A stretch of DNA of 64,000 nt from Qipengyuania spongiae (GTDB lineage Bacteria; Pseudomonadota; Alphaproteobacteria; Sphingomonadales; Sphingomonadaceae): contig NZ_CP092471.1 of the NCBI RefSeq assembly GCF_026168555.1, forward strand, positions 2,366,501 to 2,430,500. Direction: 5' to 3'. Position 1 is the first letter of the stretch. Each line of letters begins with the position of its first letter. The position numbers and the translations under genes are program-made. Positions 1,675-13,158 of this stretch are shown here, in pieces. The notes under the pieces are model-generated. The model had not been told where the DNA came from and searched no databases. It saw nothing but the letters and a program-made list of their open reading frames with translations.

Positions 1675-2709
1675 TTAGAACCAGAACCTTACACCGAGAA
1701 CATAGTTGGTTACGCTCGGATCCTGCTGACGGGCGCGTGCGTAATCCGCGCCCCGCCCTAATTTCCATTCTTGTTCGATCCCTAAATAGGGCGCGAATTC
1801 GCGGGCGATTTCGTAGCGTAGGTGTAGACCCATCTCGACATTGTTGATTCCCCCACCGATGCCGAGCTCGGGTACGTCCTGCGCCGCTAGCGCGATCTCG
1901 GCACGGGGCTGGACGACCAGGCGCTGGGTCATGCGTTGGTCGAGCTCGACCTCGACCTTGGCGGTGAAATCCCCTTTGTTCGACACGAGGAGATCTCCCT
2001 CGATTTCGAACAAATAGGGGGCAATGCCCTGTATGCCAATGTCCAGATAGGTACGGCTGGGGCCGTTCAAATCCTGGCGCGCACCGGCCTGGAGATCGAA
2101 CCAGGGGGAGATCGCGCGTCCGTAAAGGAGGGCGATGTCGGCATCCCCGACTCCATCTGCGAAACTGCCTTCGCCTTCGGATTCTACCCACACCCGGTTG
2201 ATGTCGCCGCCATACCAGGCATCGCCGTCCCACAAATACCCGTCGTCGCCTTCGCGCGCCCGAAATTCGAAGCGATCGAGGAGGAGGCCTGCGGTCAGCA
2301 TGCCGCCATTCTCCCGCGCCAGTGCGGCGCGGCTGGCGCGCATGGCTTCGGCGCCCCAGATAGCATCGGCAGCGGTCGGCGGCCCGGACCCGACGGCTGC
2401 GGGCGGCGGCGCGATCGGGATCTCAGGGGCTGAGTCTGGATCTGATCCATGGTCCATCTGGCCATGACCTATGCTCGAATGATCCATATCGTCGTGGTCC
2501 ATTTCCACCTGACCGAGCGGAGCCGGATCGTCGGGGGCGCAGCTGTCCTCTGCCGCGGCATGGCCCATGGCGCGATGGCGAGCCGCTTCGGCTTCGCATT
2601 CGTCCTGCGACGATGCGGCGTGCGCCCCGTGGCCGGCATGGGATTGCGCGAGGGCCGGTACGGCAATGGTGACCAGAACGAGCGCAGTGAAGTTTACGGC
2701 GCGGCTCAT
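1675..2709 (-). CDS. copB: Copper resistance protein B (outer-membrane, CopB/PcoB family)
   Basis: A 344-residue protein with a Sec signal peptide ending near VPALAQ. A His/Met/Asp-rich stretch of about 70 residues follows (SHAGHGAHAA, then MDHDDMDH and GHGQMDHGSD), as expected for a periplasmic copper-binding segment. The rest is a CopB/PcoB beta-barrel: GGMLTAGLLLDRFEFR, GEGSFADGVGDADIALLYGR, and a typical outer-membrane C-terminus ending in Phe (YVLGVRFWF). It is thought to sequester or export copper across the outer membrane together with CopA. Its ATG overlaps the copA stop by four bases, so copA-copB is a translationally coupled operon. Confidence 0.92.
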   Translation of the reverse strand: MSRAVNFTALVLVTIAVPALAQSHAGHGAHAASSQDECEAEAARHRAMGHAAAEDSCAPDDPAPLGQVEMDHDDMDHSSIGHGQMDHGSDPDSAPEIPIAPPPAAVGSGPPTAADAIWGAEAMRASRAALARENGGMLTAGLLLDRFEFRAREGDDGYLWDGDAWYGGDINRVWVESEGEGSFADGVGDADIALLYGRAISPWFDLQAGARQDLNGPSRTYLDIGIQGIAPYLFEIEGDLLVSNKGDFTAKVEVELDQRMTQRLVVQPRAEIALAAQDVPELGIGGGINNVEMGLHLRYEIAREFAPYLGIEQEWKLGRGADYARARQQDPSVTNYVLGVRFWF

Positions 2710-4508
2710 CCGGCCGCTCCCGCCGCTCCGCCGGACTGCGCGACGCTGACCACCTGAAACATGCCCGAATGCATGTGATAGAGCAGGTGGCAGTGGAACG
2801 CCCAGTCTCCGGGTTCGTCCGCCGTCAGGTCGAACTGCGCATAGCCGCCCGGCTGCACGATCATGGTGTGCTTCTGCGGCTGGAAACCTTCGGGCGCCCC
2901 GTTCACCAGTTCGAAGAAGTGACCGTGGAGATGGATGGGGTGGGCCATCATGGTATTGTTGACCAGCTTGACCCGGACCCGCTCGTCATAGGCGAAGCGG
3001 ATCGGATGATCGGTGACGGAGGAGTATTTCTCCCCGTCGAACGACCACATGTAGCGCTCCATGTTTCCCGTCAGGTGAATTTCGAGCATGCGCGAGGGCG
3101 TGCGCGGATCATCGTTCCGCTTCAGCGCGACGAGATCCTTGTAGGTCAGGACCCTGTGCGGCACCGTGTCGAGCCCGATACCGGGATCGCCCATCCGGTC
3201 GACCGGGTTCATCGCCACCATGTCGATGCCGGGACCGACCTCCACCGTGGGAGGCAGCCTGGAGGTATCGCGCATGTCCATTCCGCTCATGTCCATGCTC
3301 TCCATAGGCTCGGGCGCGGTAGTCTTCGCGGGCATGGAATGGTCCATTTGCGAATGGTCCATCTCGTCACCCTTTGCGCCGTGATCCATGCCGCCATGGT
3401 TCATCCCCATGTCGGCCATCGTCAGCAGAGGCGGATCGCGCAGGGCTGGCACGGGCGCGCGGGCCCCCGGCCTGCTCGCCAGCGTCGCCACTGCCATGCC
3501 GGACCGGTCCATTGCCTCGGCGACGATCGTCATCGCCTCGCCCCTCGGCTCCACCACGATGTCGTAAGTCTCCGCCGTGCCGATCTGGAATTCCTGCACC
3601 GGTACCGGGCGAACGTTCAGCCCATCGGCGGCGACCACTTGGATCTTCGCACCCGGAATGCGGACATTGAAGAAGCTCATCGCACTGCCATTGATGACGC
3701 GGATGCGCACCCGTTCGCCAGGATTGAATAGGTATTCCAGCCCTTCTTGCGGGCCGTGCCCGTTGGCAAGGTAGGTGTATGTGGAACCCGTCACATCCAG
3801 GATGTCGGTCGCCATCATCCGCATCCGGCCCCACATCCGCCGTTGCCCGGCCTCCAGCGGATAGTCGTCGGTGAAGCTGGTCTGCTGGTAGTTGAAGTAG
3901 CCCTCGCCCTTCTTCAGCTTGTCCATGATCGCGTGCGGATGCATCGGTGTGAATTCGCTTAGCAGCATCACGTAGTCGCGGTCCGCCTGCACCGGATCGG
4001 GTTCGATAGGATCGACCACGATCGGGCCGTAATGCCCCGCCTGTTCCTGCAGGTTCGAATGAGAATGCCACCAATAGGTGCCAGCCTGGCGTACCGGGAA
4101 TTCGGCGGTGAAACTCGCGCCTGGCGAAATGCCGGGGAAACTGACGCCCGGCACTCCATCCAGATGGAACGGAACGAGCAGGCCGTGCCAATGGATGGAG
4201 GTATCCTCGGTCAGCGCGTTGTGGACATTGAGCCGGACCGTGGTGCCCTCCTTCAGTCGCAGTAGCGGGCCAGGGACGCTCCCGTTGACGGCGACCGTGT
4301 GCCCGCGGCGGCCTTCGACCACGCGCATTCCCTCACTCACGGTCAGGTCGATGTGGGTGCCCGACACTTCGTCGAACCCGGTGCGGACCGCGCCGCCGTG
4401 TTGGGTCAGCGAAGCGCCGCGAGCCCAGGCGGGCATCGCGCCGAATACGCCCGCGCCAACTATTCCGGCGCCCATCAGCCGGCGGCGGGAAAGCATCATT
4501 TTCGGCAT
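2706..4508 (-). CDS. copA: Copper resistance multicopper oxidase CopA/PcoA
   Basis: A periplasmic multicopper oxidase of 600 residues that probably oxidises Cu(I) to the less toxic Cu(II). A twin-arginine signal (SRRRLMGAGIVGAGVFG) implies folded export. The first cupredoxin domain carries IHWHG and YWWHSH, and the C-terminal domain carries HPIHLHGHFFEL and HCHLLYHMHSGM; together these supply the type 1, 2 and 3 copper ligands. A Met/His-rich insert in the middle (MGMNHGGMDHG, then MDHSQMDHSM and MDMSGMDM) is typical of PcoA. The start at 4508 is chosen because AAGGAG lies ten bases upstream; an upstream in-frame codon at 4550 would overlap the operator region. Confidence 0.93.
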   Translation of the reverse strand: MPKMMLSRRRLMGAGIVGAGVFGAMPAWARGASLTQHGGAVRTGFDEVSGTHIDLTVSEGMRVVEGRRGHTVAVNGSVPGPLLRLKEGTTVRLNVHNALTEDTSIHWHGLLVPFHLDGVPGVSFPGISPGASFTAEFPVRQAGTYWWHSHSNLQEQAGHYGPIVVDPIEPDPVQADRDYVMLLSEFTPMHPHAIMDKLKKGEGYFNYQQTSFTDDYPLEAGQRRMWGRMRMMATDILDVTGSTYTYLANGHGPQEGLEYLFNPGERVRIRVINGSAMSFFNVRIPGAKIQVVAADGLNVRPVPVQEFQIGTAETYDIVVEPRGEAMTIVAEAMDRSGMAVATLASRPGARAPVPALRDPPLLTMADMGMNHGGMDHGAKGDEMDHSQMDHSMPAKTTAPEPMESMDMSGMDMRDTSRLPPTVEVGPGIDMVAMNPVDRMGDPGIGLDTVPHRVLTYKDLVALKRNDDPRTPSRMLEIHLTGNMERYMWSFDGEKYSSVTDHPIRFAYDERVRVKLVNNTMMAHPIHLHGHFFELVNGAPEGFQPQKHTMIVQPGGYAQFDLTADEPGDWAFHCHLLYHMHSGMFQVVSVAQSGGAAGAAG

Positions 4509-4540
4509 GGGTATTGCAACTCCTTCGCAAGGGTCGATAT

Positions 4541-4580
4541 ATACCCCCATGGAGTATTACAAGATACCCGGAAGGGTATC
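4541..4580. promoter_or_regulatory. Two CsoR-type operator palindromes between copA and csoR
   Basis: A perfect palindrome GATACCCGGAAGGGTATC lies at 4563-4580. A related imperfect one, ATACCCCCATGGAGTAT, lies at 4541-4557, with centres about 22 bases apart. Both resemble the TACCC...GGGTA operators of copper-sensing CsoR proteins. They sit between the divergent copA and csoR starts, so CsoR binding would repress both transcripts until copper releases it. Confidence 0.6.
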
Positions 4581-4602
4581 AGAAAGAAGGAGTGTGGAGC
4601 AG

Positions 4603-4878
4603 GTGTCGACTGACCAGTCCAATCGGATCGTCAACCGCCTCCGTCGGATCGAAGGGCAAGTTCGCGGGGTCGCTCAGATGGTGGAGGACGACCGCTACTG
4701 CATCGACATCCTTACCCAGATGCAGGCGGTCAAAGCCGCGCTGGATCGTGCGGAAAGCGCGATCCTGAAGCGCCACGCTGCATGCTGCGTCGCCGAAGCC
4801 ATTGCGAGCGGCGACGAGGAAGAACAGCGCAAGAAATTCGGCGAACTGGTCGACCTGTTCGAGAAGGCCAAACGATGA
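4603..4878 (+). CDS. csoR: Copper-sensing CsoR-family transcriptional repressor
   Basis: A 91-residue all-helical repressor of the CsoR/RcnR/FrmR family, with NRLRRIEGQVRG as the family hallmark. Metal ligands fit the copper-type C-H-C pattern: Cys33 in DDRYCIDIL, His58 and Cys62 in KRHAACCV, with the same His-x3-Cys spacing as in CsoR. The formaldehyde sensor FrmR and nickel sensor RcnR use other residues. The GTG start at 4603 is preferred because AAGGAG lies at 4587-4592; a longer reading from ATG 4549 would translate through the operator. It lies divergent to copAB and probably controls it. Confidence 0.85.
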   Translation: MSTDQSNRIVNRLRRIEGQVRGVAQMVEDDRYCIDILTQMQAVKAALDRAESAILKRHAACCVAEAIASGDEEEQRKKFGELVDLFEKAKR

Positions 4879-4919
4879 ACCCCGCCGGTTCCCTCCACTC
4901 TGGAAAAAGGATTCGTTCC

Positions 4920-6352: not shown

Positions 6353-7675
6353 TCACTGCCCCGTGAGCAGAACCAAAGGAATGCGGAGCGACGTTCGCAG
6401 ATCGGCCGCGTCTTCCGTTGCTCCGACCTCCACTGACCAGTTCACGCTGACCCGCTCTGTCGCCCGGTAGGTCACGCCGAAGAGCAGGCGACCGATCTGG
6501 AGGTCGCGCGAGGTGGTCTCACGCATTTCGGACCAGTTCTGGTTTTCTTCCAGCAAGCGTGTGCGAGTCAGCGTTCCGAAGGCCCAACTATGGGCATAGC
6601 CCAGATTGAGCGTGGTGCGCTGATTGAACGAGATGCCGATGCCGGCAGAGGCGGAAAGGGCATCGCCGGGGTCGACATAGGTGATGTTGACCGGCGGGAT
6701 CGTGGTGTCGACATCCTTGCCGAAATTGAAGGTGTACCCAAGTGTGCCGAACAGCACGACCGGGTCACTGGGCAGGATCGCGGTGAGACTGGGCGAAAGA
6801 CCGTAAAAGCCTGCCCCCGTCGTGGCGCGGCTGGGCCGGCCCAAATCGTCGCGGGACACGCTGAAGGGCTCCGATCCGGTCGGTATGACGCCTTGCAGAT
6901 TGGCGATGACATACGGGTTGCCGCGGCTTCCGTCGATGAGCTGGTAGCGGGCCGTCAGTTCCAGATCGCCGATACCCGAACCATCCACCGAACTGTCGAT
7001 CGTCGCGGCCGCATCGTTCTGCGTGCTGCCCGCGATCGGTGCAACGATGGAAGTATCGTTGCGATAGATGAGCGGAAGGCGTGCGCCTATCTCCAGGCGA
7101 TCGGTCAGCCCGTAGCGCAAGGCAAAGGACTCGGTGAGAATATCCTGCCGGCTCTCGTTGATGTCGAACACGCCGACCAGCACGGCCTCGACCAGTTCCA
7201 CTCCGCGAAAGACCGCCCGGCTGCGGTCTGCGCGAGTATAGTCCAGCTGCACCTCGCCTGTCAGTTGGCCTTTGCGCGTGACCACGCTTCCCTGATTGTC
7301 GAGAACGGCGAGTTCGATCGGTCTGTCGCTGTCCTCCGGCGCCTGCCCGACACGTTCCAAGGGTATCGGAGCCTGCTGGATCGAGCCCGGATCACCCGGA
7401 GCGCCGGGAGCGCTGCCTTGCGCCGCTGCAATCGCCGGCGCAGCCGGAGAGGGCACGGGGCCGCTGGCTATGTCTCCGGTCATCTGTTGCCGCAACTCGG
7501 CGATCTCCTGCGCCTGGCGGTCGAGTTGCTGTTGCTGGCGACCGATCTGTTCGAGCGCCTGTTCCAGACGATCCTCGAGCGTCGCCTCCGCGGAGCCGGT
7601 CGTCCTATCCTGAGCAGCCAGAGGTCCCGCGAGGAACAGCGTGCTCGCGAAACATCCCGATAGAATTCTTTTCAT
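6353..7675 (-). CDS. FapF-like outer-membrane barrel with N-terminal coiled coil
   Basis: A 440-residue exported protein with a signal peptide ending near LAGPLAAQ. Residues about 30-68 form a Gln/Glu-rich coiled coil (EDRLEQALEQIGRQQQQLD and following), then a Pro/Ala-rich linker. The remaining ~300 residues show alternating beta strands of an outer-membrane transporter (GEVQLDYTRADRSRAVF, SFALRYGLTDRLEIGARLP, LFGTLGYTFNFG). Signal, coiled coil, linker and barrel in this order match FapF, the trimeric channel that exports amyloid subunits in Pseudomonas. It is the last gene of the cluster, as fapF is. Identity is by architecture and gene order; the generic description is phenol-degradation meta-pathway-type transporter. 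Confidence 0.7.
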   Translation of the reverse strand: MKRILSGCFASTLFLAGPLAAQDRTTGSAEATLEDRLEQALEQIGRQQQQLDRQAQEIAELRQQMTGDIASGPVPSPAAPAIAAAQGSAPGAPGDPGSIQQAPIPLERVGQAPEDSDRPIELAVLDNQGSVVTRKGQLTGEVQLDYTRADRSRAVFRGVELVEAVLVGVFDINESRQDILTESFALRYGLTDRLEIGARLPLIYRNDTSIVAPIAGSTQNDAAATIDSSVDGSGIGDLELTARYQLIDGSRGNPYVIANLQGVIPTGSEPFSVSRDDLGRPSRATTGAGFYGLSPSLTAILPSDPVVLFGTLGYTFNFGKDVDTTIPPVNITYVDPGDALSASAGIGISFNQRTTLNLGYAHSWAFGTLTRTRLLEENQNWSEMRETTSRDLQIGRLLFGVTYRATERVSVNWSVEVGATEDAADLRTSLRIPLVLLTGQ

Positions 7676-7697
7676 GCACACCCCCTGATCCCTGTGG

Positions 7698-8390
7698 TCA
7701 AAAACGAGTCGTCATCGCTTCTATTGTGACGTTCTCGACGCGGAAGATGGTCGACCCCAGGACGTCTGGCCCCGCATTGCGCAGGTCGATGGACAGAGCG
7801 GTCTGGGTATCTATCGCGCGATTGTCGGCGCTGTTCGCAATGGCGGAGCCGAACGCGCTCCCGGTCAGGTGGATCACACGCAGGTCCGGGGAAACAAGTT
7901 CTACCCCCTGAATTCCCGAAGTCCCGAATGTGCTGACCGATCCGTTGTCCGTCGCCACCGGCATCGAGCCATCGACGATCCGTAGCCCTTCCGGAAGAGT
8001 AAGTGCCACGGCACTGGGGCCGTAGCCGACCGCTGCGGAAAGCGGCGCACCGGATGTGGTCACCTGAAGACCCGAGGTCCTGTTGTAGCTGACCACCGCT
8101 TGCATTCCAGGAATCGTCTGGGACGAGCCGGACGGGATAGCGATCGTTTCGCCGGTCTTCGGCACATAGATCTGGATGACCGGCGGGCCCTGATCGATCG
8201 TGACCACCGTCTGCAGAATGACATTGCCGTCGATGGCGGTCCGGGTCTGAATGCTCAGATTCGCGTCGATGCCGTTTGGCAGGCGCAACCCGCCGCGTTG
8301 TTCCGCCAGCACTGGTTCGGTCAGAGGCGTATCGTCGTAGAGAGCGCCGGGTGTGGCGGAAGCGGCGAGTGCCAGAACGGCTCCGATCAT
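7698..8390 (-). CDS. Exported protein of the Fap-like cluster (FapE position)
   Basis: A 230-residue protein with a short hydrophobic leader (MIGAVLALAASATPG). Residues 23-34 read LTEPVLAEQRGG, which fits a double-glycine leader motif, so cleavage after Gly34 by the neighbouring C39 peptidase is plausible. The rest is beta-rich and polar (LPNGIDANLSIQTRTAIDG, VVTIDQGPPVIQIYVP), with no cysteine. Its start overlaps the peptidase stop by four bases. It occupies the place of fapE between the peptidase and the barrel, but I do not claim sequence homology to FapE. Function unknown; a minor fibre or chaperone component is one possibility. Confidence 0.65.
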   Translation of the reverse strand: MIGAVLALAASATPGALYDDTPLTEPVLAEQRGGLRLPNGIDANLSIQTRTAIDGNVILQTVVTIDQGPPVIQIYVPKTGETIAIPSGSSQTIPGMQAVVSYNRTSGLQVTTSGAPLSAAVGYGPSAVALTLPEGLRIVDGSMPVATDNGSVSTFGTSGIQGVELVSPDLRVIHLTGSAFGSAIANSADNRAIDTQTALSIDLRNAGPDVLGSTIFRVENVTIEAMTTRF

Positions 8391-9106
8391 GAGATGTCTC
8401 CATAGAAGGGCGCTGACAGCATGAGCGTCTGCTGGCTGACGGGGTCGGAGAATTCTCCGCCGATCGGGGCGCGGGTGTAGGATGCCCATTGCGCGTCGGT
8501 CCCGAATGCGGCTCGTGCTCTCTCACGATCATCGGTCAGGACGAAATAGATCCCGTTCCAGGCTTCCGCGAATTCCTCGCGCCCCATCGTCGTGATCCCA
8601 ACGGAGGGGTCGCCGAGAAGCACCTCGTTCCCCCTGAAGCCTTTGACGACCACGAAGTGCTTGTAGTTCTTGACCGAAATCAGAGCGATCCCCGGCAATC
8701 CGGTTTCCGCTACCTGCTCCAGCCCGACCTTGTAACCCTCGGCCTTGATCCCCCGGCTACCGAGCCAGCGCTTCATGTCCAGAAGCGAGAAGCCGACACG
8801 CCGTATCTGCTCCCGATCGCCTTCCGCCCACATGCCGCGAAAGGCGATCTCTTCCCGAACCGCGTAGTCATAATGGTAGCGAAGCAGCGTCGCGAGCGCT
8901 GCCGAGCCGCAACTGAAATCGTATTTTTGTCGGACGACGCCGGCAAATCTGCCTTCGTCGAGGCTTCGAACCGGTATGCCGAACTCACCGACCGGATTTC
9001 CCGGCCCCACGAAGGTCGAGATGCCGCTGACATCCTGCGCGCATCCGGCACACAAAGCCGTGCCTGCCAGCGACGCAAGCAGCCAGGGAACGTGGATACG
9101 GCTCAC
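8387..9106 (-). CDS. C39-family cysteine peptidase (FapD-like)
   Basis: A 239-residue stand-alone peptidase without an ABC transporter. A hydrophobic leader ends in CAGC (Cys22), so it may be a lipoprotein, although the lipobox is not ideal. C39 catalytic residues are present with expected spacing: Gln60 (oxyanion), Cys66 in DFSCGSAALATLL, His149 in NYKHFVVVKGF and Asp165 in LLGDPSVG. C39 enzymes cut after double-glycine leaders. FapD, the Fap-cluster member of this family, is needed for amyloid export. The GTG start overlaps the upstream stop (GTGA). Likely targets are the co-encoded proteins with GG-like motifs. Confidence 0.85.
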   Translation of the reverse strand: MSRIHVPWLLASLAGTALCAGCAQDVSGISTFVGPGNPVGEFGIPVRSLDEGRFAGVVRQKYDFSCGSAALATLLRYHYDYAVREEIAFRGMWAEGDREQIRRVGFSLLDMKRWLGSRGIKAEGYKVGLEQVAETGLPGIALISVKNYKHFVVVKGFRGNEVLLGDPSVGITTMGREEFAEAWNGIYFVLTDDRERARAAFGTDAQWASYTRAPIGGEFSDPVSQQTLMLSAPFYGDIS

Positions 9107-9540
9107 GGGTTCGGCGAGATCGATACGTTGACGTTCATCGCCGCGTTGATCGCCACGTTGTTTCCGGTGTTCACATTCAGGATCGAGAGGCCCGACATGT
9201 TCTGGAATGCCTGCCCGCTGATCTCCGCGGTACCGGTGGTGACATGATCACCCACCGAATTGCTCGAGACGCCGGCGGTCTGGACGGCATATGACGCCTG
9301 ACTGGTATCTTCCCGTCCGGCGATCTTGCGCAACTGAGTTTCGCTGACGGTCTCCGCTGAGCCGAAGAGAGAGGCCTCGTTCCCTCGTGGTTGCGCGCCT
9401 TGCTCCGAAGTTTCGTCCGGAGACCCTTCCACTTCGGCTGGTGCCGGCGCTATCTGCACCCCTTCGATCTGCTGCGCTTGCAGCGGAAGAGCGAATACGA
9501 GCGCTAGAAATCCTCCCGACACTATTTTCCCGTGGCCCAT
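9103..9540 (-). CDS. Small exported fibre-like protein (FapB-like minor subunit)
   Basis: A 145-residue protein with a signal peptide to about ALPLQAQ. Residues 65-76 read VSETQLRKIAGR, a double-glycine-like motif with the second Gly replaced by Arg. The mature C-terminus (AFQNMSGLSILNVNTG, then alternating Asn/Val strands) closely matches the C-terminus of the large repeat protein encoded just upstream. This two-size pair sharing a C-terminal module recalls FapB (nucleator) and FapC (major subunit). The start at 9540 is chosen because GAGGAG lies seven bases upstream; the stop overlaps the peptidase start. Confidence 0.65.
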   Translation of the reverse strand: MGHGKIVSGGFLALVFALPLQAQQIEGVQIAPAPAEVEGSPDETSEQGAQPRGNEASLFGSAETVSETQLRKIAGREDTSQASYAVQTAGVSSNSVGDHVTTGTAEISGQAFQNMSGLSILNVNTGNNVAINAAMNVNVSISPNP

Positions 9541-9565
9541 CGGCCCTCTCCTCGCCTTGGAAAGC

Positions 9566-9595
9566 ATCGGCCCGTCGCAGAAACGACGGGCCGAT
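9566..9595 (-). terminator. Perfect 12-bp stem-loop after the large subunit gene
   Basis: Arms ATCGGCCCGTCG (9566-9577) and CGACGGGCCGAT (9584-9595) are perfectly complementary with a six-base loop. On the minus strand the stem follows the repeat-protein stop and is trailed only by GCTTTCC, so it is a weak terminator or a 3'-end stabiliser. It would raise the amount of the major subunit relative to the export genes downstream. Confidence 0.6.
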
Positions 9596-9604
9596 CTTCA
9601 GAGG

Positions 9605-11311
9605 TTAGAACGAAACGTCGCCGGTCGAGACCGCCACGCTGACATTGGCGTTCTGGGAAGCGCCCACTCCAGTATTCTGGTTGAGAGCCTGCATCCCAGC
9701 GAAGTTCTGGAATGCGTTGTCCCCGTTGGACAGGCTGTTGTCCGGCTGTGCACCGCCGCTGTAGCTGGCCTGATCGTAGGTCACGCTCACACCGGTCACG
9801 TAGCTCGACAGAGTCGCGCTCGCCACGATCGCGCCGTCGCCGAACACGTTGTCGGAGGCAGCAGAACCGGTCATGTAGCTCGAGCTGTTGTAGCTGTCGG
9901 TTACGTAGACCGAGTTGTCCGAACGATCGCTGTTGTCCGAATTGTCATTGTAACTGTCGCTAACCGAGTTGTCGTTGCCGCTGTCCGCGACCGCGACTTC
10001 GTAGGTGGTGACCGAATTGTCAGAATTGTCGCTGTTGTCGGAATTGTCGCTGTTATCCGAATAATCGGTCACCGTGCTTCCGTTATTTGCCGCGAACCGG
10101 CCGCCGGAAGCTGAGCTGTTATCCGAATTGTCGGTCGTCGAATTGTCCGAATTGTCCGAATTGTCGGAGTAATCGGTAACCGTGCTTCCGTTGTTGGCAG
10201 CGAACCGACCACCCGAGGCGGCACTGTCGGTCGAATTGTCGTTGTTGGAATCTTCCCAGTTCATCGAGTTGTCGTTTCCGGAATCGGCGATGCGAACGGA
10301 GTTGTCGTTCCCGCTGTCGTGGGTGGAATTGTCGTTCCCGCTGTCGGCAATCGCGATGTCGGTGTCGGTCGAGTTGTCGTTGTTCGAATCCGCCCAGTTC
10401 ATCGAATTGTCGCTGTTGTCGGTGACGTTGCTGCCGTTGTTCGCAGCGAAACGGCCAGCGGATGCGGACGAATTCGTCGAGTTGTCATTCCCGCTGTCGG
10501 AGGTCGAGTTGTCGTTCCCGCTGTCCGATATCGCGAGATCGTAGGTCGTGGTCGAATTATCGGAGCTGTCGTTGAAGCTGTCGTGGGTCGAGCTGTCATT
10601 GCCGCTGTCCGATACTGCAACTTCGACCGGGTTCGATGAGTTGTCCGAATTGTCGGTTACGTAGCTGCCATTGTTGGCGGCAACCCGACCGGCGGAAGCC
10701 GACGTATTGGTGGAATTGTCGGTCATCGAGTTGTCGTTGCCGGAATCGGCAATGCTGGTGGAACGGTCCGAATAATCGTTGTTCAGGTTCTCGCGAGTCG
10801 AGTTGTCATTCCCCGAATCCGCAATGCTGGTGGAACGGTCCGAATTGTCATTGCCGGAATCGGCAATACTGGTCGAACGATCCGAGTAATCGTTGTCCAG
10901 ATTTTCGCGCGTGGAATTGTCGTTCCCCGAATCCGCAATGCTGGTGGAACGGTCGGAGTAGTCGTTGTTCTGATTCGAGTTGTCGCGGGCAGAATTGTCG
11001 TTGCCGGAGTCTGCGACGTCCGTGTCGTATCCATGGGTCGAGTAATCGTTACCCTGGTTGGAATTGTCCGAATAGTCGTTCCCTTGGTTCGACGCACTCG
11101 AATTGTCATTGCCCGAGTCGGAGACCGAAATCGAATTGTCGCTGTTCTGCGCGCTGTTGTCAGTACCGGCATACGAGCCGTTATTGGCCGACGTCTGACC
11201 AGCACCGGCGCTGCTGTTGTCGGAGCCGCTCGAGTCCTGCGCCGTAACCACGGTCGACATCCCCAGTAGCAATGCAGCCGCGGAACAGGTGTGCAATAGT
11301 GAGATTTTCAT
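9605..11311 (-). CDS. Large Asp/Asn/Ser-repeat exported protein, putative amyloid/surface fibre subunit
   Basis: A 568-residue protein with a clean signal peptide (MKISLLHTCSAAALLLGMS to VVTAQ). From about residue 25 to 475 it is almost entirely Asp, Asn, Ser, Thr and Gly: about 13 copies of DSGND[NS]S, several NDYSDRSTSIAD units and four larger modules with GR[FV]AANNGS followed by VTD. The C-terminal ~90 residues are ordinary, and the last 37 (AFQNFAGMQALNQNTG and on) match the small protein encoded next. No cysteine occurs after the leader. The start at 11311 has AGGAAG upstream. A Fap-type major fibre subunit is the best guess; an acidic calcium-binding surface protein is the alternative. 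Confidence 0.7.
   Translation of the reverse strand: MKISLLHTCSAAALLLGMSTVVTAQDSSGSDNSSAGAGQTSANNGSYAGTDNSAQNSDNSISVSDSGNDNSSASNQGNDYSDNSNQGNDYSTHGYDTDVADSGNDNSARDNSNQNNDYSDRSTSIADSGNDNSTRENLDNDYSDRSTSIADSGNDNSDRSTSIADSGNDNSTRENLNNDYSDRSTSIADSGNDNSMTDNSTNTSASAGRVAANNGSYVTDNSDNSSNPVEVAVSDSGNDSSTHDSFNDSSDNSTTTYDLAISDSGNDNSTSDSGNDNSTNSSASAGRFAANNGSNVTDNSDNSMNWADSNNDNSTDTDIAIADSGNDNSTHDSGNDNSVRIADSGNDNSMNWEDSNNDNSTDSAASGGRFAANNGSTVTDYSDNSDNSDNSTTDNSDNSSASGGRFAANNGSTVTDYSDNSDNSDNSDNSDNSVTTYEVAVADSGNDNSVSDSYNDNSDNSDRSDNSVYVTDSYNSSSYMTGSAASDNVFGDGAIVASATLSSYVTGVSVTYDQASYSGGAQPDNSLSNGDNAFQNFAGMQALNQNTGVGASQNANVSVAVSTGDVSF
9905..11160 (-). repeat. Degenerate tandem repeat array inside the D/N/S-rich gene
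   Basis: A roughly 1.2-kb stretch of short in-frame repeats built from units such as GACAACTC and TCGGGCAACGACAA. The units vary at codon third positions, so protein repeats are better conserved than DNA repeats, consistent with selection on the protein. Higher-order modules of about 60-130 bases recur (two near-identical copies around 10030-10100 and 10125-10205). Unit number could vary by slippage. Confidence 0.85.
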
Positions 11312-11447
11312 GATGCCTGACTTCCTCTTCGAAAGTTGATCATCCGCCCGCCCAAGGTTGACGAATGCAGCGCCACATCGCGCGGCCCCATGCGCTACAT
11401 GCGCGCTCGAACCCTCCAATGCTGCCCCCAAAGACGGTGCTATCGCC

Positions 11448-11463
11448 CCCCCCATTTGGGGGG
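11448..11463. promoter_or_regulatory. C6-N4-G6 palindrome upstream of the repeat-protein gene
   Basis: Six C, ATTT, six G (extended by two more C on one side) lies in the 186-base gap between the LuxR-type regulator and the repeat-protein start, about 137 bases before that ATG. It is a symmetrical site of a size suited to a dimeric regulator, and the neighbouring LuxR-type protein is the obvious candidate. No clear -35/-10 pair was recognised. Confidence 0.45.
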
Positions 11464-11497
11464 ATTAGCGCGCGATAACGGGCTGAAATAAAAGAAT

Positions 11498-12637
11498 TTA
11501 CGAGAATGCGCAGATTTTCCGGAACGTCGCCATCCGGATGGAGCTGCGAAGCAGAAGCTGGACAAGTTCCGCCTGTCTGTTCGTTTCCGTTTTCGCAAAA
11601 ATCTGTTTCAGATAGGAACGTGCCGTCTGCTCGCGGATCGAAATGCTCTTCGCGACATCGCACAGGGGCCGCCCCTCGACCAATCCGCAGGTCAGGCGTG
11701 TTTCATTGGGGGAGAGACCGTAGAACCTGCATACAGGTTCAATGATATCGCTCAGATTTTGCTCCGGATCGAAGACATAGGCGATAGCCATAGTATCGAC
11801 AGGTATGAGTTCGCCGGCCCGCGGCGCCTGAACCAATCCAATTAGCAGCGGACGGCGCCCGGGGCGTTTTATAGCAATCACGGGGCTGGGTTCGGCACCT
11901 TCGCGATCCCCATCGACAAGGTGTTGAACGGCTGATTGGAGACGCAGCGTGTCGCCAATCCCAGCACTCGCAAGTTTTCCGTGAATCTGACGGATACCGT
12001 CTCGTTCCGACATGATAAGCTCGGCTGCCTTGTTGGCGAATGCAATTCTGCATTCCTGATCCAGGATCAGCGTCGCAACGTCGCTGTGCTGAATCGCGGC
12101 AGCGAATCCATGGTTGCGAGCCTTCAGACGGGTTCTTTCCGAGACCGTACGGAACAGGATCGAAAGCAATGGAAGCATTTCCGAAAACCGCTTTCTGCTC
12201 CGCTCGGCGGCCAGGCTCCCCCTTCTTCCAATCCAGTTGGTGAGGACGAACCGCCCGGATTCGACAGGGAAATCTGCTTCCACCAAACAGTCGTCGCGGG
12301 ACGAGCCAACGGATTTCGGATGGACTTCGGCAGACGCGTCGGTCGCGCTGCACCACGCATCCTCGGAGCCGGCGGGACGCGCACGATATTGGGCGCACCC
12401 GAATTCGGCGACAACGTGGGAACCGGCGTGGTGGGGGTCGATCCATTCGACCAACGTTCCTTCGAATCCGCAGTACTGTGCCAGTTCACCTGCGATGCTT
12501 TCCAAAGCATCGCCGCCGTGACGGTCCCTGTTGTCAGACACCGAAACCACCGCGGCCAGGGGCCAGTGAGACGGTCTCGCAACGTTTTCGGGAGTTACTG
12601 CCGAACGGGTCATGTCCTCTCCAAGAAGAAGCGCCAT
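11498..12637 (-). CDS. LuxR-family (helix-turn-helix) transcriptional regulator
   Basis: A protein of about 379 residues with a C-terminal LuxR-type DNA-binding domain: FYGLSPNETRLTCGLVEGRPLCDVAKSISIREQTARSYLKQIFAKT fits the GerE pattern of four helices. The middle part (HSDVATLILDQECRIAFANKAAEL) resembles a PAS-type sensor fold. No receiver domain is seen. Starts are possible at 12682, 12637 (GGAG eight bases upstream, used here) and 12613 (GGAGAGG upstream). It lies just upstream of the repeat-protein gene in the same direction and is the likely local regulator of the fibre cluster. Confidence 0.8.
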   Translation of the reverse strand: MALLLGEDMTRSAVTPENVARPSHWPLAAVVSVSDNRDRHGGDALESIAGELAQYCGFEGTLVEWIDPHHAGSHVVAEFGCAQYRARPAGSEDAWCSATDASAEVHPKSVGSSRDDCLVEADFPVESGRFVLTNWIGRRGSLAAERSRKRFSEMLPLLSILFRTVSERTRLKARNHGFAAAIQHSDVATLILDQECRIAFANKAAELIMSERDGIRQIHGKLASAGIGDTLRLQSAVQHLVDGDREGAEPSPVIAIKRPGRRPLLIGLVQAPRAGELIPVDTMAIAYVFDPEQNLSDIIEPVCRFYGLSPNETRLTCGLVEGRPLCDVAKSISIREQTARSYLKQIFAKTETNRQAELVQLLLRSSIRMATFRKICAFS

Positions 12638-12855
12638 TGTTCGAACTCCGCGCCGCGAAGCCATACTAACGGCCGTTTTCACTTGACCCGACTTTTCTAA
12701 GGAACCTGTTCAAGCACCTGTTTATAGAAAAATTTTTTTCAAGCGCCGGATTCGCAGTCCATCTACCATACCCGGCGGCAACGAAAAATTAACCTAGTTT
12801 GGAAGTATCATAAAGAAACAGCGGTCTTGATCCAAGAGAATGACCGGCTACTTTC

Positions 12856-13158
12856 CTACGCTTGCAGCCCAGCGTCGCGAACGGCTGCGGCGATGAGTTC
12901 CGCGCCTTGGAAACCCCACCAAACATCCATTTCGAGACGAAGAACGCGACCGGTCGACACTTCGTCTGCGACCCTCACCGCGTCGACGATTTCCTCGGTG
13001 TTGGCTTCGGTAAGTATCCACGAGCGACCGCCGGCTATATTCGCAAGCTCTTCGTCCGACACCGGATCGAAAACTTGGAAAGGAGCTGAATGATCTCGTG
13101 CGGCTGAAGGCGCGGCAACTAGAACGGCAACCGCCGCAAATAAAGCGGGCATCTTCAT
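12856..13158 (-). CDS. Small exported protein with a double-glycine motif
   Basis: A 100-residue protein with signal peptide MKMPALFAAVAVLVAAPSAA. Residues 33-44 read VSDEELANIAGG, matching the classic double-glycine leader consensus (LSxxELxxIxGG), here behind a Sec signal rather than at the N-terminus. The predicted product after Gly44 has 56 residues with acidic and hydrophobic stretches (VWWGFQGAELIAAAV). GGAG lies seven bases before the ATG. It precedes the LuxR-type gene and may be the first gene of the fibre cluster, at the place of fapA. Its function is unknown; signal, substrate or chaperone roles are open. Confidence 0.6.
   Translation of the reverse strand: MKMPALFAAVAVLVAAPSAARDHSAPFQVFDPVSDEELANIAGGRSWILTEANTEEIVDAVRVADEVSTGRVLRLEMDVWWGFQGAELIAAAVRDAGLQA

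Follow-up and report, generated by a model that had tools for sequence, protein, structure and literature searches.

A double-glycine-type leader as a predicted recognition site of periplasmic FapD-type C39 peptidases

The biofilm amyloid of Pseudomonas is secreted by the Fap system (FapA-F), which depends for this on FapD, a standalone periplasmic C39 peptidase: Cys38 is required, and a Cys38Ala mutant loses secretion (PMC5557850). The substrate and the site are unproven in that account; Rouse et al. (2017) called the target of FapD unclear, described the Fap proteins as lacking canonical C39 sites and noted GG and GA motifs in FapE (PMC5557850). A review dated December 2025 goes no further than naming FapE and FapF as proteins that FapD is thought to process (PMC12822426), one paper writes of FapC as the FapD-modified protein (PMC10638192), and pairs of fapD and fapF have been reported in five additional phyla (PMC6173800). 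Here we describe a Fap-like locus in 64,000 nucleotides of Qipengyuania spongiae DNA (contig NZ_CP092471.1, positions 2,366,501 to 2,430,500; the window, meaning the whole stretch analysed), where three proteins, named by their lower coordinates 7698 (protein D), 9103 (protein U) and 12856 (an orphan), share a 12-residue element. We think it probable, judging from comparisons of sequences, that this element is the recognition site, and presumptively the cleavage site, of periplasmic FapD-type C39 peptidases.

In PCAT substrates the leader makes contact through positions -4, -7, -12 and -15, and its last two residues are GG, GA or GS (PMC7018657), and -4, -7 and -12 are the positions bound by C39 domains (PMC7018657, PMC6363468). 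As in the PCAT/AMS systems, the window C39 matches solved protease domains, and leader positions -12, -8, -7, -4 and -2 agree; unlike them, the locus has no ABC protein, its enzyme and substrates are predicted to be periplasmic, and -1 may be K, R, M or Q. The Nap island of Neisseria gonorrhoeae (NapP, NapF) is, by its published description, similar in combining a C39 enzyme, a FapF homologue and cargo with a GG motif, and its authors propose periplasmic cleavage of the GG peptides by C39; it differs in that the cargo consists of small cationic peptides and a holin-like protein is suggested for passage through the inner membrane (PMC11798529). The putative pilus system Fil has a related C39 (FilB, 113 bits) and barrel (FilC, 58.7 bits), but the window proteins fall far under the NCBIfam cut-offs (475 for FilB, 630 for FilC).

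The Fap-like locus and its candidate leader

The locus lies on the minus strand, where U, the C39 gene, D and a barrel gene form a tight four-gene group (9540 down to 6353); a GTGA overlap joins the stop of U to the start of the C39 gene, and an ATGA overlap joins the C39 stop to the start of D. Its resemblance to Fap is one of design: a standalone periplasmic C39, an outer-membrane barrel and Sec-exported subunits are encoded in one operon, and FapE bears a leader of this type whose last three residues are RGR or RGK. Yet the C39 enzyme (8387..9106; PF03412 74.6 bits, cut-off 22) scores 148.1 bits against the NCBIfam C39_FapD model (NF058616, cut-off 330) and the barrel (6353..7681; PF13557 39.5 bits) 124.5 bits over 405 residues against FapF (NF058560, cut-off 700), both under the equivalog cut-offs. 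Protein D does not match the FapE model (NF058559, cut-off 250 bits), two operon proteins bear leaders instead of one, and the subunit repeats of the locus are at most weakly like those of FapB/C: the tails of the repeat proteins (both tail sets) align with the FapB/C repeats in register, at 5 and 19 percent probability. By the FapD and FapF scores the system is nevertheless Fap-like, with a tag shared with FapE, and in this our reading goes beyond an earlier, preliminary description of the locus.

That description reported V/L-S/T-x3-L-x4-G-G/R, with identical spacing, as a double-glycine motif in three Sec-exported proteins, and all three 12-mers are indeed where it placed them: LTEPVLAEQRGG in protein D (7698..8390, minus strand; leader 8289..8324, residues 23-34 from an ATG at 8390), VSETQLRKIAGR in protein U (9103..9540, minus strand; leader 9313..9348, residues 65-76 from an ATG at 9540) and VSDEELANIAGG in the 100-residue orphan (12856..13158, minus strand; leader 13027..13062, residues 33-44 from a start at 13158). 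The double glycine itself is present in two of the three; the 9103 motif ends GR. Sec signals were assessed by eye or by a hydrophobicity rule, the stricter version of which requires a basic residue ahead of the hydrophobic core: a hydrophobic, signal-like stretch precedes the leader in all three proteins, and 9103 and 12856 pass the stricter rule but 7698 fails it. Protein D, a predicted substrate, consists of a hydrophobic N-terminus, the leader and a 196-residue mature domain; protein U, a predicted substrate and small subunit, has a Sec-like signal, the leader and a C-terminal NTGNN segment. A profile scan of the window proteins gave no Pfam or NCBIfam match for D and no credible family in either database for U.

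Taken together with its relatives, the element reads as a double-glycine-type leader with a hydrophobic residue at -12, a mostly acidic -10, Leu at -7 and Gly at -2; position -1 is most often Gly, Lys or Arg, and in D-type proteins +1 is usually aromatic. A general profile built from 25 leaders of other families (from the phylum sample described below) gives the 7698 motif 23.5 bits, the 12856 motif 17.3 and the 9103 motif 1.3; in a 450-kb background drawn from this genome (window positions 14001-64000 together with 20 stretches of 20 kb), 1 of 483 open reading frames with a hydrophobic N-terminus reaches 10 bits. The 9103 motif is accepted because its homologues conserve it, not because of its profile score. 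Of the three, the 12856 leader alone shows the whole PCAT pattern (hydrophobic residues at -12, -7 and -4, then G-G/A/S); the 7698 leader departs from it by Q at -4 and the 9103 leader by R at -1.

Could these be ordinary cytoplasmic double-glycine leaders, destined for a C39 ABC exporter encoded elsewhere in the genome? The 12856 leader does come near bacteriocin leaders (TIGR01847, bacteriocin_sig, 13.9 bits, under the cut-off of 15.7). However, the genome (2.93 Mb, rated 100 percent complete) contains two PF03412 domains, both standalone, in open frames of 286 and 251 residues with signal-like N-termini, and a profile search of the whole genome found no PF03412 domain in an ABC-sized frame; signal-like stretches ahead of all three leaders also speak against a cytoplasmic reader. 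Export by a cytoplasmic ABC transporter was rejected on the genome-wide result and is extremely improbable, and the preliminary description was right to place the leaders outside an ABC transporter context. The second C39 gene (at C1:194081) has a similar neighbourhood, with flanking genes that bear LTESELAEARGG and LGATELETERGR. It belongs to a second, paralogous Fap-like locus (L052, G000:C1:186000-202700) with its own C39, D, U and barrel-like genes.

Conservation of the leader and its linkage to the C39 gene

We retrieved homologues by sequence, whether or not they had the motif: 103 proteins for D and, for U, the first 120 of 308. The motif is covered by 97 of 102 aligned D homologues; all 97 have Leu-7, Arg-3, Gly-2 and Gly-1, and 94 have D or E at -10. 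Among the 119 aligned U proteins from the first 120 of 308, -12 is V, I, L or M in all 119, -10 is D or E in 117, Leu-7 and Gly-2 are present in 119 and Arg-1 in 118. The motif has a mean information of 2.83 bits in D and 2.49 in U, as against 1.40 and 0.95 bits in the 25 residues preceding it and 2.13 and 3.00 bits in the part that follows; the leader thus exceeds the preceding linker in both proteins and the mature part in D only. The preliminary description had named loss of the motif in orthologues as grounds for abandoning the idea; for the 7698 and 9103 proteins the motif is kept. An aromatic residue is frequent at -17/-18 (Phe in 116 of 119 U and 55 of 97 D homologues), which would suit a docking helix of greater length.

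The leader also follows the C39 gene. Among 249 genomes of the same bacterial family, 41 have a C39 match, at 43 places, two of which are in frames the size of ABC exporters (744 and 843 residues); four congeners (G078, G146, G198, G239) have no C39 match, so the locus is patchy. We retrieved 40 of the 43 places (all except the window and the two ABC-sized frames), which with the window make 41 loci in 39 genomes. The gene directly after C39 bears the leader in 41/41 of them, in 38 by regular expression; the other three are L051 (ANNAELEQQRGG), L058 (ASDSELADMRGK) and L035 (VPDEDLAEMRGG). Homologues of D occur in 19 of the 249 genomes, all 19 of them C39-positive, and those of U in 20, of which 19 are C39-positive; in the remaining one, G244, the match is weak and lies in a frame of 993 residues. 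Of 398 genomes sampled from the phylum, 41 match the NCBIfam FapD model (53 places listed), eight of them over the curated cut-off; 40 regions covering 42 of the 53 places were analysed, four others being already in the sample. The last seven, which score lower and include four in frames of 771-1036 residues, were omitted. At 30 of the 42 C39 sites, the downstream gene has a leader-like match to the regular expression.

A scan of contigs gave 587 relatives. We used the best 80 of them, which apart from one Geotalea belong to the Alpha-, Beta- and Gammaproteobacteria. With the 41 family loci these make 121 loci, 102 after removal of 19 duplicates or relatives of the training set. The general profile reaches at least 12 bits within 600 nucleotides past the C39 stop in 84/102 loci, against 9/1121 control positions, taken after other long open reading frames in the same stretches; at 10 bits the figures are 89/102 and 25/1121. 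Among the 18 misses, 12 have a similar sequence by eye (e.g. ANNAELEQQRGG, VAAESLDGYRGG), and one locus (L164) lies at a contig edge. A second profile, trained on 28 FapE-type leaders over positions -12 to -2 (-1 omitted) and applied to 88 loci after 14 FapE-type family loci were set aside, detects at 10 bits 60/88 D positions against 9/799 controls and 22/88 U positions against 14/799; it does not detect the U leader of the window. One locus (L122, in G382) has the U-C39-D unit duplicated in tandem on one contig.

Short motifs of low information invite the objection that their similarity is due to chance: a loose regular expression matches unrelated proteins, and the 9103 motif alone is worth 1.3 bits. 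This explanation is contradicted for the 7698 and 9103 proteins, and was rejected for them, by conservation among homologues and by the enrichment of loci over controls; as an explanation overall we regard it as highly improbable, though the 12856 motif may be such a case.

The same leader precedes mature domains of different kinds. When the parts after the leader were compared as profiles (D proteins being chosen by a leader score of at least 9), they fell into two groups, one made up of A, B, N and H and the other of the FapE-like C, Ps and G2, and 11 of 12 comparisons between groups gave a probability of at most 2 percent. The remaining one, mature clade-A D against FapE (A vs Ps), is borderline at 55 percent (E 1.2e-4), and links within the first group are also weak (A-H 29 percent, N-H 56 percent). 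A leader common to largely unrelated domains is as expected of a processing signal.

FapE, the C39 enzyme and the processing step

At all eight loci whose FapD scores over the cut-off, the gene after fapD bears L-K-D-x-E-L/M-A-x-L-R-G-R/K, at 29-31 bits; an example, from L110, is VPEHELAEMRGR. The FapE-type leader begins 29-67 residues from the longest possible start and is followed immediately by Y or F, and the two of the eight proteins that were scanned reach 345 and 337 bits on the NCBIfam FapE model, past its cut-off of 250. These regions were scanned as longest non-overlapping open reading frames of at least 80 codons, a selection that in L110 may have dropped fapA or fapB; no other reading frame in the eight regions scores above 10.8 bits, and the next-best match is without the glycine pair. 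In the scanned fap loci the leader was not found in FapB or FapC. From the canonical C39 site, the FapE leader departs mainly by R or K at -1. It agrees with proteomic observations: by mass spectrometry FapE is the sole Fap protein with complete N-terminal processing, its mature N-terminal peptides being missing (PMC5557850). GG or GA motifs in FapE and FapF, and the suspicion that FapE is a substrate, were thus already in the published text; in the literature covered, mostly main text available without subscription, we found no report of a leader common to FapE and other Sec-exported proteins.

Within the bacterial family of the window, loci L058-L071 have repeats resembling NIGVN-AAG-NQQ and, besides, FapE-like proteins, of which the two that were scanned score 57 and 71 bits on the FapE model. 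A 2013 survey is said to have limited Fap to Beta-, Gamma- and Deltaproteobacteria, in contrast to these loci.

The window enzyme is a C39 peptidase by its PF03412 match over the curated cut-off and its catalytic Gln, Cys, His and Asp, and aligns with the double-glycine protease LahT (6mpz, E 7e-11); the Cys66 singled out in the preliminary description is in place. Its N-terminus carries a signal or an imperfect lipoprotein signal (CAGC), and a loose pattern, some of whose matches are doubtful, places lipoprotein boxes in 31 of 41 C39 proteins of the family sample; membrane anchoring may thus be common among these enzymes. Gln60, Cys66, His150 and Asp166 are identical in all 123 aligned relatives, chosen as those with a D leader ending G, K or R, near-duplicates included. 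Enzymes beside RGK/RGR leaders (the FapE-type loci L058-L071 and L103-L120) differ from those of the RGG type at positions 62, 68 and 171 (window C39 numbering), which adjoin catalytic residues, and a link to the -1 residue is visible; it was dropped as evidence, since the two sets of enzymes also resemble separate clades and the link is confounded with phylogeny.

Our preferred route has three steps. The proteins would first cross the inner membrane by Sec and lose their signal peptides, as their signals suggest; the leader, now N-terminal, would then dock in the hydrophobic groove of C39 and be cut after the -1 residue; and the trimmed protein would finally cross the outer membrane through the barrel, the presence of a FapF-like barrel in the operon pointing this way, and join or anchor a surface fibre. 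The reader of the leader would therefore be a periplasmic FapD-type C39, not a cytoplasmic ABC exporter. Sec export followed by periplasmic cleavage is the two-step route of the preliminary description, and it fits the computed evidence for 7698, for FapE-type proteins and probably for 9103, the cleavage step being deduced, because the tag is conserved, tied to the C39 gene and placed before largely unrelated domains in a genome with no C39 ABC exporter; for 12856 the case is thin.

Two other readings keep the leader and change what it does. In the first, it is a docking site, and C39, without cutting there, has the main task of chaperoning or gating for the barrel; the frequent K, R, M or Q at -1 would suit such a role, and some type I systems have C39-like domains that serve as chaperones and lack catalysis (PMC5557850). 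The identity of all four catalytic residues in 123/123 relatives argues for an active peptidase, as do the loss of secretion in FapD Cys38Ala and the missing N-terminal peptides of FapE (PMC5557850), and we hold docking alone to be unlikely. In the second, the motif directs sorting to the FapF-like barrel or to a periplasmic chaperone, its proximity to C39 being mere operon linkage. The barrel gene does share the operon in the window, and the authors of the Fap study suggest that the lost N-terminus of FapE may be a FapF targeting sequence (PMC5557850). Against this, the motif matches known C39 leaders position by position, and FapB and FapC are reported to use the same barrel (PMC5557850), yet the leader was not found in them in the scanned loci; a pure sorting signal is very unlikely.

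Several observations weigh against recognition and cleavage by C39. (i) FapE peptides are missing over about the first 70 residues, somewhat past the leader, and the FapF linker is also bare of peptides, FapF being kept as a second candidate target (PMC5557850). (ii) At 12 of the 42 C39 sites in the phylum sample the downstream gene has no match to the regular expression. For seven of these (L136-L142), which have their own C39 subtype, no convincing leader-bearing neighbour was found; at the other five (L124, L126, L127, L134, L135) the upstream gene bears a leader in all but L134. (iii) The -1 residue is K, R, M or Q in many leaders, chiefly in U proteins, outside the G-G/A/S rule of PCAT. 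(iv) The stricter signal rule does not call a signal in the 7698 protein. (v) The 9103 leader is weak on the general profile (1.3 bits) and missed by the FapE-trained one, and in U the leader is less conserved than the mature part (2.49 vs 3.00 bits), so that conservation in U alone is weaker evidence. (vi) One of the two homologues of 12856 is without the glycine pair. The standalone C39 subtype of L136-L142 is itself distinctive in that a cleavable signal is not clear.

FapD is essential for secretion of the Pseudomonas amyloid, with substrate and site unproven (PMC5557850); recognition of the leader by C39 names one protein and one bond as its predicted target and predicts point mutations that should block secretion. 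The leader may also serve as a tag for finding the cargo of many FapD/FapF-like loci. More tentatively, and with somewhat less than even expectation, it could be a general address code for a secretion class of Pseudomonadota (Sec, a periplasmic C39 and a FapF-type barrel) with unrelated cargo (FapE, the D family, small U subunits and orphans like 12856), served by two enzyme branches that cut after RGG or after RGK/RGR; it would then be the long-sought FapD cleavage site.

The 12856 orphan and other genes of the window

The orphan, with its Sec-like signal and leader, lies outside the tight operon. Is it a third substrate? In a search of 5.8 billion proteins, the 12856 protein itself was the sole match at E 0.01. 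A direct search gave one orthologue, in Croceibacterium mercuriale, located upstream of the regulator and carrying VARDVLAHSHGR, with the spacing kept, a G-R ending and a shared tail around MDVWWG. Searching the 249 family genomes gave matches in 10 at E 0.01; four of the eight further matches were read (G055, G044, G154 and G231; G102, G162, G179 and G211 were left out), and among those four only G055 looks homologous. The G055 homologue lies about 675 kb from its C39 locus and has LADADLAGVTST, with the spacing kept and the glycines lost. We did not accept 12856 as a proven substrate, given few homologues and the loss of the glycines in this unlinked one; its leader is poorly conserved, and a third substrate is a possible role.

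In the order of transcription on the minus strand, the orphan is followed by a regulator (11498..12682), which has matches to PF13188 (PAS, E 0.056) and PF00196 (LuxR-type HTH, E 0.067), both under the cut-off, then by a protein with SGNDNS repeats (9605..11311), and then by U, C39, D and the FapF-like barrel. The repeat protein, likely the major subunit by its open reading frame and a tail that by eye is like that of protein U, has neither a Pfam nor a credible NCBIfam match, and no leader was found in its first 140 residues. The barrel begins, again by eye, with a coiled-coil-like stretch followed by a Pro/Ala-rich linker. Scans of the window gave seven promoter-like sites (2.0 expected) and four terminator-like ones (6.9 expected), and no use was made of either. 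Window positions 1675-4879 hold what looks by eye like a copper-type cluster: a small regulator-like open reading frame together with multicopper oxidase-like and CopB-like proteins that contain stretches rich in His and Met.

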